Shown piece by piece: positions 7,566 through 11,230 of a stretch of 36,737 nt of DNA. Each line of letters begins with the position of its first letter. Positions within the stretch are counted from its first letter, which is position 1. The DNA lies in contig JACZSJ010000010.1 of the NCBI GenBank assembly GCA_022574295.1, positions 1 to 36,737 on the forward strand, in the 5' to 3' direction. The DNA is from Pseudomonadota bacterium (GTDB lineage: Bacteria > Pseudomonadota > Gammaproteobacteria > Eutrophobiales > Eutrophobiaceae). The notes below the pieces were generated by a model. It was not told the DNA's origin. It did no database searches and saw only the letters and a list, made by a program, of their open reading frames with translations. The position numbers were made by a program, and so were the translations under genes.

Positions 7566-8093
7566 TCATTGTCCTGGTTTTGTAGTGACAACAAGGTTCT
7601 TGCCGAGCGCGGTATTCAAAATGTCTTTTGAGCCGGATAAAGAGAAGGATGTCTCGCCATAGGTTCCGTTCTTCAAAAGAAAGCGATAATAAATTACATT
7701 TCCATTCATCAGGTTATGCAAGGGTAGTGACAATACCCTGTCATCAGTAATGTAGCCTATCACGTATTCAGCCCAACGTGGCTGTAAAATGCAGGTGGCA
7801 TCATTAATTGATCGATTGCTTAATACGCGCTCGTCAACCTGAGAAGTCGGGCATTGTTTGACTGCAATAAGATCATAGCTGTTTCGTATGCTGAACCTTG
7901 AACGTACGACATCGTTGGCATCTCGATATATCTCCAGCTTGTATCCTTCCTCATTTTCAATGGTAGCAACGCGTGTCTGTACCCCAGAATCCGTGTCTGT
8001 ATGCGACATGACATTCCACTGGCTCTGTGCCAGTAACTGGATCGGCACGGACACACTCAGCAAAAACAGGAAAAGAGTTAATTTTCGTTTCAT
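7566..8093 (-). CDS. Exported protein of unknown function
   Basis: I do not recognise a family. Starting at 8093, the product is about 175 residues with a clear Sec signal peptide (MKRKLTLFLFLLSVSVPIQLLAQ), cleaved near residue 22. The ORF extends upstream to 8135, but the extra residues would sit before the signal peptide, so I chose 8093. The mature part is rich in beta-type sequence and has two cysteines (in KQCPTSQ and ATCILQP) that could form a disulphide in the periplasm. It lies upstream of aat and is divergent from the exported deacetylase-like gene, with an AT-rich 114-base gap that must carry both promoters. A periplasmic role is inferred only from the signal. Confidence 0.72.
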   Translation of the reverse strand: MKRKLTLFLFLLSVSVPIQLLAQSQWNVMSHTDTDSGVQTRVATIENEEGYKLEIYRDANDVVRSRFSIRNSYDLIAVKQCPTSQVDERVLSNRSINDATCILQPRWAEYVIGYITDDRVLSLPLHNLMNGNVIYYRFLLKNGTYGETSFSLSGSKDILNTALGKNLVVTTKPGQ

Positions 8094-8207: not shown

Positions 8208-9209
8208 ATGAATCGTAGAGTCTTTCTTAAGCTAATACAAACGGCCATTTTGTTATTTGGCCCATTCAGAACAACACTGGCTGCTCTGAAGAAGCAGCCG
8301 ACAGGGCTTGTTTACGATGATTTTTTTCTTCAGTACTGGCTGGAGGAAGGGCATCCTGAGTCGCCGGATCGGCTTCGCAGCATCATGAAACTGATGAAGC
8401 ATTCAGGCTTGCTTTCACATTTAACACAAATACAAACCAGGGTGGATGTCCTGGCCGATCTTTCCCGAATTCATACTGCAGCACATGTGCATGCACTTAA
8501 AATAGAATACGGAAAATCAAATGATGTCGCACTGGCGGTTGTTGCTGGCATCCTGGCTGCAACTGATGAGGTTTGTCGTGGCAGCTTGAGGAATGCATTT
8601 TGTGTAACTCGACCACCAGGGCATCATGCGAGAAATACGGGCAAAGTCGAAGGCTTCTGTTTTTACAATGGTGTTGCTGTTGCTGCCCGCTACGCCCAGG
8701 AAAAATACGGCTTAAAGAAAATATTGATCGTCGATTGGGATTATCATCATGGCAATGGGACAGAGGCATTCTTTTATTCAGATCCCAGCGTACTTTATTT
8801 CTCCACCCATGATTATTTTGCCTATCCAGGCACGGGTGATCCAGCCAAAGTGGGTGAGGGTGCTGGCAAAGGATTTAATATTAATGTCCATCTTGATTGC
8901 AAATCGACTGATGAAGATATAATTGCGGCCTTTAATGAAAAATTATTGCCTGCCGCAAACCGCTTTAAACCAGATTTGATACTGATATCGGCGGGTTTTG
9001 ACAGCCGTCAGGATGATCTGCTTGGTTGTTTCGATATTACTGATGAAGGTTATCAGCAAATTACGATGATGGTCATGCAACTGGCGGGTCAATATTGCGA
9101 TGGTCGACTCGTTTCAGTCCTGGAGGGTGGCTATAACCTGGATGGGCTTGCCAGTGCAGTCAAAGTCCATGTTGAAACACTCCACTCAGGAACACAAACA
9201 AAAAACTGA
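8208..9209 (+). CDS. Histone-deacetylase-family zinc hydrolase with Tat-like signal
   Basis: This is an arginase/deacetylase-fold enzyme, related to acetoin-utilisation protein AcuC, acetylpolyamine amidohydrolases and class II HDACs. The 333-residue product has PPGHHA (His139, His140), DWDYHHGNGT with zinc ligands Asp178 and His180, the third ligand Asp265 in AGFDSRQDD, and the transition-state Tyr309 in LEGGYN, so all catalytic residues are kept. Unusually, the N-terminus is MNRRVFLKLIQTAILLFGPF, which fits a twin-arginine signal (RRxFLK then a hydrophobic run) with possible cleavage near residues 24-26. That would place a folded zinc enzyme in the periplasm. A membrane anchor is the alternative. 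The substrate is unknown; an acetylated polyamine or small amide is a guess from the family. Confidence 0.88.
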   Translation: MNRRVFLKLIQTAILLFGPFRTTLAALKKQPTGLVYDDFFLQYWLEEGHPESPDRLRSIMKLMKHSGLLSHLTQIQTRVDVLADLSRIHTAAHVHALKIEYGKSNDVALAVVAGILAATDEVCRGSLRNAFCVTRPPGHHARNTGKVEGFCFYNGVAVAARYAQEKYGLKKILIVDWDYHHGNGTEAFFYSDPSVLYFSTHDYFAYPGTGDPAKVGEGAGKGFNINVHLDCKSTDEDIIAAFNEKLLPAANRFKPDLILISAGFDSRQDDLLGCFDITDEGYQQITMMVMQLAGQYCDGRLVSVLEGGYNLDGLASAVKVHVETLHSGTQTKN

Positions 9210-9225: not shown

Positions 9226-9564
9226 TCAGGTTTTACTGGTGTCTTTTCCTGAGGTGTATACTGGAAATGGGGCAATATTACTACCGCTTTCTGATATATT
9301 CGTAATTTTTGCGGCACCTTCCTTTTTTACCTCATCAATACGAATGACTGAGTGCATAGGAATATAGGTACGTGAAACCTCCTTAAATTCTGATTTCAGG
9401 TTCTCTTCAGAGGGATCGACCACAACCGCTGACCTTTCACCAAAGACGATTTCTTCAACCACAATAAAGCCGAACATCTCACCTTCATGGACGCTACGAG
9501 CAAAAATTTCATAAACCTTGTCCTGATTCTGAAAGATTACTTTGTAAATGATTTTTTTCGACAT
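9226..9564 (-). CDS. DUF1820 family protein
   Basis: The 112-residue protein begins MSKKIIYKVIFQNQDKVYEI and matches my memory of the DUF1820 family found in many gammaproteobacteria, typically about 110 residues with a conserved Glu-Met-Phe-Gly-Phe segment (EGEMFGFIVVEEI). Its function is unknown. It has no signal peptide or membrane segment and is probably cytoplasmic. It converges with the deacetylase gene, only 16 bases away. A TAGAAT box with GC-rich discriminator lies upstream, so it probably has its own promoter. Confidence 0.75.
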   Translation of the reverse strand: MSKKIIYKVIFQNQDKVYEIFARSVHEGEMFGFIVVEEIVFGERSAVVVDPSEENLKSEFKEVSRTYIPMHSVIRIDEVKKEGAAKITNISESGSNIAPFPVYTSGKDTSKT

Positions 9565-9727: not shown

Positions 9728-11230
9728 TTATAGACTGATAAAGAGGCTCCCACCGGGACCAAGTGGTAGTCCAGTATTTATCCAGATTAGAAGCATGACT
9801 ATCCAGATAAGACTGAATATCACCGTGTACGGCAGCATCAGGGCTATCAGGGTGCCAAAACCTGCATTTTTCCTGTGTCTCTGCAATTCCACCAGAATAA
9901 TAATCATGTAGGGATTCATCGGGGTAATCACATTAGTGACTGAATCACCGATACGATAAGCAACCTGCGTTAATTCAGGTGAAAAACCAACTTGCATCAG
10001 CATGGGGACAAATACGGGCGCTAAAAAGGCGTATTTAGCTGAAGCAGATCCTATCAATAGATTAGCTGACATTACCATCAGAATAAAACCGGTAATCAAC
10101 ATCGAAGCATCAAATTGCATGGCCACCAGCCATTGTCCACCGGTGATGGCCAACATTTTCCCCAGACCGGTGTATTTGAAACATTCAATAAACTGTGCAG
10201 CAAAAAAAGCCATGACAATGTAGGGCGACAGGCGAGAGATAGTTTCGCTTAACATCACAATGACTTGCTTATCATTTTTGATAACGCCTGCTGACAGGCC
10301 GAAGACAATGCCCGGCACAAAAAACAAAATAAACAATAATGGGACAGTGGCTTCAACCCAACGGGAAAAATGGGAGCCGGTGCCATATAAGGGTGCACCG
10401 GGAATGCTTATCAATAGACCAACAATAATAAGTGCAACACTCAGAGCCACGAATGCATGTATTAAAGCCTTTTTTTCATTCGCATATTCAAGCTGACTAT
10501 CAACGCGTTTCTCTGGTTCATCATTGGTAATCAAATCCTGGGCTGGATCAAGACGGGGCTCAACAAACCATGCAGTCACCGCCCAACCAAGCAGGGTCAG
10601 CAATACGGTTGAAACCAGCATGAACCACCAGTTGGCAGTGACAGCAACCTGATAATCCGGAACTAATATTTGTGCAGCGGTTTGTGTCAGCCCTGAGAGT
10701 AGGGGGTCAAGTGCAGTGACCAACAGATTCGCACTGAATCCAGCAGAAATTCCTGCGAATACAGCAGCAATCCCTGCCAGCGGTGAACGTCCTGCGGCAA
10801 TGTAGAGAGCAGCAGCAATGGGGGGTAAGACGACGTATCCTGCATCCAGCGCCATTGACGACATGATGCCTAAAAATATTGTTGCTGGGGTCAATAATGA
10901 TTGGGGGACCAGCAGGATAGAATGACGTAATAGTGCAGGCAGGAACCCTGATTTTTCTGCCAGACCAATCCCCAACATACCAACCAGAACAATGGCTAAT
11001 GGTGGAAATTTTATAAAATTTTCTACCATATGACTTAATAGCCACCAGATCCCATCTGATGAAAGTAAATTTTGTGTGGTGAGTGTGCCCGTCAATTCAC
11101 TGTAAACTCTCCAGTCCATAGAAGTGGCCAACCATGACAAAAACATCACGATGCCTGTGCCGATGACAAATAAAGTTGCCGGATCGGGCAATCGATTGCC
11201 AGTTGCTTCAATCCGATCAAGCAGTATCAT
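9728..11230 (-). CDS. AbgT-family transporter
   Basis: This polytopic inner-membrane transporter belongs to the AbgT family, whose members move p-aminobenzoyl-glutamate or export sulfonamides. The 500-residue length and N-terminus (LLDRIEATGNRLPDPATLFVIG) are typical. Family-typical segments include LVGMLGIGLAEKSG, MSSMALDAGYVVLPPIAAA and GDSVTNVITPMNPYMIIIL. Roughly a dozen hydrophobic helices are visible. Its ATG overlaps the stop of the upstream alpha/beta hydrolase (ATGA), so the two are co-translated. No abgA/abgB hydrolase pair is present, so p-aminobenzoyl-glutamate use is not supported by context. The transported compound remains open. Confidence 0.92.
   Translation of the reverse strand: MILLDRIEATGNRLPDPATLFVIGTGIVMFLSWLATSMDWRVYSELTGTLTTQNLLSSDGIWWLLSHMVENFIKFPPLAIVLVGMLGIGLAEKSGFLPALLRHSILLVPQSLLTPATIFLGIMSSMALDAGYVVLPPIAAALYIAAGRSPLAGIAAVFAGISAGFSANLLVTALDPLLSGLTQTAAQILVPDYQVAVTANWWFMLVSTVLLTLLGWAVTAWFVEPRLDPAQDLITNDEPEKRVDSQLEYANEKKALIHAFVALSVALIIVGLLISIPGAPLYGTGSHFSRWVEATVPLLFILFFVPGIVFGLSAGVIKNDKQVIVMLSETISRLSPYIVMAFFAAQFIECFKYTGLGKMLAITGGQWLVAMQFDASMLITGFILMVMSANLLIGSASAKYAFLAPVFVPMLMQVGFSPELTQVAYRIGDSVTNVITPMNPYMIIILVELQRHRKNAGFGTLIALMLPYTVIFSLIWIVMLLIWINTGLPLGPGGSLFISL

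Follow-up and report, generated by a model that had tools for sequence, protein, structure and literature searches.

A histone deacetylase-family enzyme with a predicted twin-arginine leader and a deleted L2 loop in a gammaproteobacterial genome

The gene, its product and its neighbours

The stretch of DNA analysed here (36,737 nucleotides, hereafter the window) carries an intact open reading frame with an ATG start at positions 8208 to 9209 of the plus strand. Its product of 333 amino acids is a predicted zinc deacetylase of the histone deacetylase (HDAC) family, which bears a leader of the twin-arginine (Tat) type and lacks the L2 loop. A Pfam search with the product gave a match to PF00850 over residues 49–325 (E 7.6e-87), and an NCBIfam search returned no model at an E value of 0.001 or better. 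The RPPGHH motif (residues 135–140, positions 8610 to 8627) contains His139 and His140, the DWDYHHGNGT motif (residues 176–185, positions 8733 to 8762) the zinc ligands Asp178 and His180, and the EGGY motif (residues 306–309, positions 9123 to 9134) the catalytic Tyr309. The segment GFDSRQDDLL (residues 263–272, positions 8994 to 9023) provides the zinc ligand Asp265, the subfamily-specific Arg267 and the gatekeeper position Leu272; all of these motifs are read from the plus strand. The original prediction had named the three ligands, the histidine pair and the tyrosine correctly at every position, and this catalytic set is conserved to 100% across the alignment of the subfamily defined below. 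The PF00850 match together with the Asp-His-Asp ligands, the His pair and the Tyr points to a classical Zn-dependent deacetylase with an arginase-deacetylase fold, and the enzyme very probably acts as a deacetylase or amidohydrolase. From what is established for such enzymes, the mechanism would involve a zinc-activated water, the His139/His140 pair and Tyr309.

An AlphaFold2 model computed with 66 family sequences reached a mean pLDDT of 90.2 and a pTM of 0.88, with low confidence chiefly at the leader and the C-terminal tail. The solved structures closest to the window protein are of the class II type and include the HDAC6 domains, HDAC4, the B. phymatum HDAC and the Alcaligenes/Pseudomonas HDAH. 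Structural alignment of the model gave Z scores of about 42 (rmsd 1.5 over about 290–298 residues) with P. aeruginosa HDAH and B. phymatum HDAC, nearly tied with HDAC6 and HDA15 (Z about 41); Foldseek ranked HDAC6 CD1 first. The evidence presented here consists of sequences and this one predicted structure, and the relatives compared stem mostly from metagenome-assembled genomes (MAGs).

On the minus strand a divergent gene (positions 7566 to 8093) encodes, when read from an inner ATG, a protein of 175 amino acids that begins with MKRKLTLFLFLLSVSVPIQLLAQ and has a Sec-like signal peptide as judged by eye. It belongs to no known family, since no Pfam, NCBIfam or PHROG match was obtained. Downstream of the HDAC gene follow a convergent DUF1820 gene (9226 to 9564, minus strand) and a gene for an AbgT-family transporter (9728 to 11230, minus strand). 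This context is conserved within the bacterial family, where the order is infA, ate, aat, a FemAB-like gene (PF04339), the gene for the small exported protein, the divergent HDAC gene, DUF1820, AbgT and an alpha/beta hydrolase; infA was identified from its sequence alone, and the FemAB-like gene is missing from the window. The conserved order makes it less likely that the gene stems from contig contamination. A promoter scan detected fewer sites than in shuffled sequences and none within the divergent gap.

The divergent neighbour had been proposed to be exported too, and it does look exported. Nevertheless, it is no obligate partner of the enzyme: of the 53 genomes examined from the bacterial family, 40 encode the small protein, and several of these lack the Tat enzyme (among them G002, G003 and G007–G011). 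The proximity of the AbgT gene was considered as a hint at amide uptake, a weak one since its synteny is conserved almost only within this bacterial family.

Definition and distribution of the subfamily

Two sources supplied relatives of the enzyme, namely named genomes and a set of 53 from the bacterial family to which the window belongs; duplicates were removed. The subfamily comprises 83 proteins with at least 49% identity over the domain; two of these are cut at contig ends, so that 81 were scored for a leader. Its members come from Gammaproteobacteria, Gemmatimonadota, Chitinivibrionales, Acidobacteriota, Lentisphaerota and others. In a quick maximum-likelihood tree based on the domain columns only, the proteins with at least 49% identity formed one branch apart from the paralogues, with moderate support (82–88 SH-aLRT). 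RPPGHH and EGGY are found in 100% of the 83 members, His180 is invariant, and the gatekeeper position is occupied by Leu in 99%. Further residues, among them His93, Tyr179, Arg267, Cys274 and Asp279, are invariant or near-invariant in the subfamily yet different in close paralogues. Among these, Tyr179 is invariant within the subfamily and replaced by Val in every comparison group.

Eleven of 274 sampled gammaproteobacterial genomes contained a match at an E value of 1e-90 or better, and thus the trait is sparse but distributed over several families. Ten of the eleven matches scored at least 495 bits, which is the range of the subfamily, and had an RR leader wherever the start was read. The eleventh (G265, 365 bits) is an HDAC that contains the L2 loop and has a signal-like N-terminus of its own. 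This protein (L143, G265:C73; 47% identity) begins with QVRRILALTLLSGVMNAWGQS, which resembles an export signal, and possibly represents a third exported HDAC lineage. In genomes of the genus g15 (1.0–1.5 Mb) that carry the Tat-type enzyme, no other HDAC was detected. As a separate observation, protein L121 (G037:C14) has a PF00850-type domain behind a long N-terminal region which by sequence impression resembles a GNAT-type acetyltransferase, a possible acetyltransferase-deacetylase fusion.

The twin-arginine leader

Residues 1–30 (positions 8208 to 8297, plus strand) make up the predicted twin-arginine leader, with the n-region MNRRVFLK, the h-region LIQTAILLFGPF and a subsequent RTTLAALKKQ. 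The whole N-terminus reads MNRRVFLKLIQTAILLFGPFRTTLAALKKQ and the domain starts at about residue 32; the n-region MNRRVFLK is exactly as first quoted. Its NRRVFLK corresponds to the (S/T)RRxFLK motif that Tat substrates carry close to the N-terminus. Leaders of the relatives were scored by simple sequence rules, with the pattern RRx[FLIM][LIVMFY] searched upstream of the domain. It was found in 74 of the 81 untruncated relatives (at least 49% identity) from several phyla. Both arginines are invariant in these 74 by construction of the pattern. The uniformity of the following positions, with Phe at +3 in 68 and Leu or Ile at +4 in 70 of the 74, is informative because the pattern permits other residues there. 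The RR lies 22 to 43 residues ahead of the domain, and the nearest upstream start codon precedes it by 2–5 codons in 71 of 74 cases. Between RR+7 and RR+16, 72 of the 74 leaders have no or one charged residue, and 71 pass a simple h-region rule.

None of 15 leaderless paralogues from the bacterial family of the window has an RR leader. The same holds for 40 PF00850 proteins sampled phylum-wide (0/40), which agrees with the original statement that bacterial members of this enzyme family are generally cytoplasmic. A loose version of the leader rule was met by 24 of 499 neighbouring ORFs, many of these being matches inside ferrochelatase-like ORFs and no leaders. Fisher tests of the leader against the controls yielded p < 1e-29, a value that overstates the case because the relatives share descent and are not independent. 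By these sequence rules the RR leader is present in the subfamily beyond chance. A phylogeny of family members with RRxFLK leaders had been suggested as a check; on the tree described above, the branch formed by the subfamily is the one in which 74 of 81 untruncated proteins carry the motif. Mapped on the tree, the leader changes at least six times, including in one separate clade of class I-like HDACs, and gains are indistinguishable from losses. In a second species of the genus (G028), whose contig ends at residue 25, four codons of the leader are different, three of them silently and one with an amino acid exchange.

The arginines might be no signal at all, either because the true start lies downstream or because they belong to the folded domain, as they do in cluster 1b enzymes, and either case would leave the enzyme in the cytoplasm. 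A precedent is the P. aeruginosa HDAC PA3774 (MTRRTAFFFDELC...), which was listed among in-silico Tat candidates and has no clear hydrophobic core in the segment displayed there (PMC6085387). In the window protein, however, the distance from the RR to the domain is 29 residues, and the stretch behind the RR is hydrophobic and uncharged. A scan for ATG, GTG and TTG found no start codon after codon 15, a TTG still inside the leader, until codon 60, an ATG that already belongs to the domain; a leaderless product beginning near residue 30 is therefore impossible. The upstream start 2–5 codons from the RR and the preservation of the leader across phyla likewise speak against this explanation, which we regard as most improbable. 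Relatives starting downstream of the RR had been named as a possible argument against export; no such case appeared, since the relatives without the motif (7/81) have no such leader at all.

Export by the Sec pathway, with a Sec-type signal or with an RR that is incidental, was also considered. The alphaproteobacterial member L091 starts with MIKRVFLKK and a long hydrophobic stretch and looks more Sec-like, and Sec and Tat signals are known to overlap (PMC5539426). Against this, 68 of the 81 members retain an RR with Phe at +3. Such a combination is a constraint not imposed by Sec, and typical Tat cargo includes zinc enzymes whose folding takes place in the cytoplasm. Export by Sec is thus very unlikely.

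The genome of the window (G000) encodes TatC (C139) and two TatA/B-type proteins (C139, C86), as well as a leaderless HDAC (C103). TatC is present in 12 of 13 tested genomes of leader-bearing relatives, the exception being one Acidobacteriota MAG. Three findings support the export that had been proposed from the single sequence: the motif persists in several phyla, the genome has Tat genes, and there is no other start that could be used. It is highly likely that the enzyme of the window is a Tat substrate.

The seven members without a leader indicate that export is not essential to this type of enzyme. The idea that they belong to genomes without Tat holds for the two from Cloacimonadota, in which TatC is missing, but fails for those from Aminicenantes, Fibrobacterota and Neomarinimicrobiota, the other five genomes having TatC. 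A link between absence of the leader and absence of Tat is therefore only suggestive. The two proteins from Candidatus Cloacimonadota (L102 and L109), leaderless members of the subfamily with no TatC found in their genomes, would fit either disappearance of the leader from genomes that lack Tat or incompleteness of the MAGs.

While the predicted leader is well supported at the sequence level, its cleavage point is uncertain. An AxA motif occurs in the c-region of 19 of the 74 leaders, against a mean of 17.8 in shuffled sequences, and RTTLAALKK in the window protein is a weak cleavage site. As AxA is not enriched, the leader may stay uncleaved and serve as an N-terminal membrane anchor that holds the Tat-targeted enzyme on the periplasmic face of the inner membrane. 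On the other side, signal peptidase motifs are degenerate and a permissive small-x-small triplet is found in 74 of 74 leaders; moreover, the h-regions are short and moderately hydrophobic (median hydropathy of the best 12-residue stretch 1.7). Retention as an anchor is the less likely option.

Loss of the L2 loop

Codons 89–123 (positions 8472 to 8576, plus strand) encode one continuous long helix, residues 91–123 in the model, at the site where other HDACs have the L2 loop of the active-site rim. Between the HTxxH helix (HxxxY/H) and the RPPGHH motif, 15–16 residues of L2 are missing in all 83 members. The spacing from helix to RPP, determined by a simple rule with which 20 of the 40 proteins of the phylum-wide sample were not measurable, amounts to 44–46 residues in 83 of 83 members and to at least 58 in all measurable others. 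An L2 loop of usual length is a common feature of the HDACs sampled here and no published criterion for cluster 1 of Graf et al. This deletion is a second hallmark of the subfamily and was absent from the original prediction. It is also found in the leaderless members, and hence loss of L2 defines the subfamily and not export.

The L2 residue that holds the peptide backbone is Asp101 in HDAC8, with a counterpart in HDAC6. Loss of the loop removes this residue, and we infer that the active-site rim is open and the substrate range relaxed or unusual.

Substrate and probable role

According to Graf et al. 2024 (PMC11532494), RPPXHH combined with EGGY marks robust, acetyl-preferring deacetylases whose foot pocket is small; a preference of the window enzyme for acetyl groups would follow. 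The original prediction was a periplasmic deacetylase or amidase acting on acetylated polyamines or amides. Export by Tat is supported at the sequence level, as set out above; the acetylpolyamine part is not supported.

Exported acetylpolyamine amidohydrolases that deacetylate acetylated polyamines ahead of uptake are conceivable, since polyamine deacetylases exist among HDAC-fold enzymes. In HDAC10 a Glu gatekeeper favours polyamines, and its exchange for Leu raises lysine deacetylase activity (PMC11532494). The window enzyme has Leu272 at this position, as do 99% of the members, and residues 49–55 read HPESPDR, without the N-terminal PECE motif of HDAC10. Absence of the Glu does not exclude activity on polyamines, because bacterial polyamine deacetylases (ApaH) also lack it (PMC11532494). 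However, L2 is the polyamine-specificity loop of these bacterial enzymes (PMC11532494) and is deleted in all 83 members, and polyamine genes are absent among the identified neighbours. With both the specificity loop gone and Leu at the gatekeeper position, a dedicated acetylpolyamine amidohydrolase is improbable. Polyamines could nonetheless be among the substrates of a broad acetamide hydrolase.

Deacetylation of lysines in envelope proteins or in imported proteins and peptides would fit the HDAC6-type gatekeeper Leu272, the RPP and EGGY motifs and the fact that the nearest eukaryotic relatives are class II enzymes. On the other hand, we know of no periplasmic acetyltransferase or acetyl donor, the L2 loop with the backbone-holding residue of HDAC8 and HDAC6 is missing, and our literature search, which covered few subscription papers, gave no periplasmic deacetylation system. 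A periplasmic protein deacetylase therefore seems rather unlikely. Still more doubtful is a two-compartment deacetylation, in which a leaderless HDAC would serve the cytoplasm and the open-rimmed, Tat-exported HDAC would act on periplasmic or surface proteins; if true, this would be an acetyl-group chemistry outside the cytoplasm that has not yet been described.

The gene context in other lineages was inspected for hints at a role. In Gemmatimonadota (L092, L096–L100, L104 and L106) the HDAC gene lies beside genes for PF01425 amidases with Tat- or Sec-like leaders, and five of these eight loci also encode TIGR01891-type amidohydrolases whose leaders are again Tat- or Sec-like. These loci are candidates for an amide-degradation cluster outside the cytoplasm and provide the best contextual hint that the enzyme takes part in extracytoplasmic amide breakdown. 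In Methylophaga (L054, L057, L061, L066, L073, L078, L080, L086, L094, L095 and L105) the HDAC gene precedes a co-oriented gene for a crotonase that is related to the DSF synthase RpfF and scores below the cut-off of the RpfF model. A hybrid sensor kinase gene adjoins, in several loci together with an HD-GYP-like gene, and the arrangement resembles a DSF signalling locus. As contexts differ by lineage (infA-ate-aat, RpfF-like crotonase, amidases), no single pathway is indicated.

We consider it likely, taking all evidence together, that the window gene encodes a Tat-exported, zinc-dependent acetamide hydrolase acting in the periplasm. The enzyme would fold and bind its zinc in the cytoplasm, and the Tat translocase would then carry it, already folded, into the periplasm or, through an uncleaved leader, to the outer face of the inner membrane. 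There it would hydrolyse N-acetyl groups from small or peptide-borne amines as a general deacetylase or amidase, leaving cytoplasmic deacetylation to the leaderless paralogue. A catabolic role, the use or detoxification of acetylated environmental compounds, is put forward tentatively. As roughly 90% of the close relatives, from several phyla, retain the leader, bacteria carrying it probably remove acetyl groups outside the cytoplasm. The subfamily offers a defined set of proteins for asking what is deacetylated in the envelope. Inhibitors of the HDAC type would reach periplasmic enzymes more readily, owing to their greater exposure.

Comparison with known deacetylases

Bacterial HDAC-type enzymes have so far been treated as cytoplasmic. 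A literature search for periplasmic or Tat-exported HDACs, with subscription papers mostly outside its coverage, yielded the listing of PA3774 and nothing else. The main survey of bacterial classical deacylases mentions neither the periplasm nor signal sequences (PMC11532494). Its secreted example is Legionella LphD, a type IV secretion substrate in which the RPP motif is absent (PMC11532494).

The cluster 1 bacterial HDACs (KpHdaH, P. aeruginosa HDAH and Bordetella/Alcaligenes HDAH; Graf et al. 2024) share with the window protein the fold (Z 41–42), the zinc ligands, RPPGHH, EGGY and a class II-like core. In contrast to the Tat subfamily, they have no signal leader and retain the L2 loop, and the Tat subfamily has its own conserved Tyr179, His93, Arg267 and Asp279. 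The catalytic domains of HDAC6 are the best sequence and Foldseek matches (34–40% identity), and the Leu gatekeeper is as in CD2. Unlike the window protein, HDAC6 is a cytoplasmic two-domain enzyme with an L2 loop and without an export leader. Acetylpolyamine amidohydrolases (cluster 4, Mycoplana ramosa ApaH) and HDAC10 have the arginase-deacetylase fold and the catalytic set in common with the window protein, which possesses neither the polyamine-specificity L2 loop of ApaH nor the Glu gatekeeper of HDAC10.

Legionella LphD/Smh1 (cluster 3) likewise combines an HDAC fold with a route out of the bacterial cytoplasm, as predicted here for the window protein. That route is type IV secretion, however, and the effector LphD carries GLPSHH and additional helices, with Asn replacing the His that binds zinc (PMC11532494); the window protein instead contains RPPGHH and His180, and its leader is of the Tat type. 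Within the same bacterial family, the g7 HDACs (L116–L120) also combine an HDAC fold with an RR leader. They are class I-like (GGLHH, GGGGYD), have RPD3 and HDLP as their best single-domain matches, are 25–27% identical to the window protein and keep the L2 loop; judging from sequence, their leader was gained or kept separately from that of the Tat subfamily. A conserved exported branch with a reshaped rim and this second, class I-like case would together imply repeated relocation of deacetylase chemistry out of the cytoplasm.
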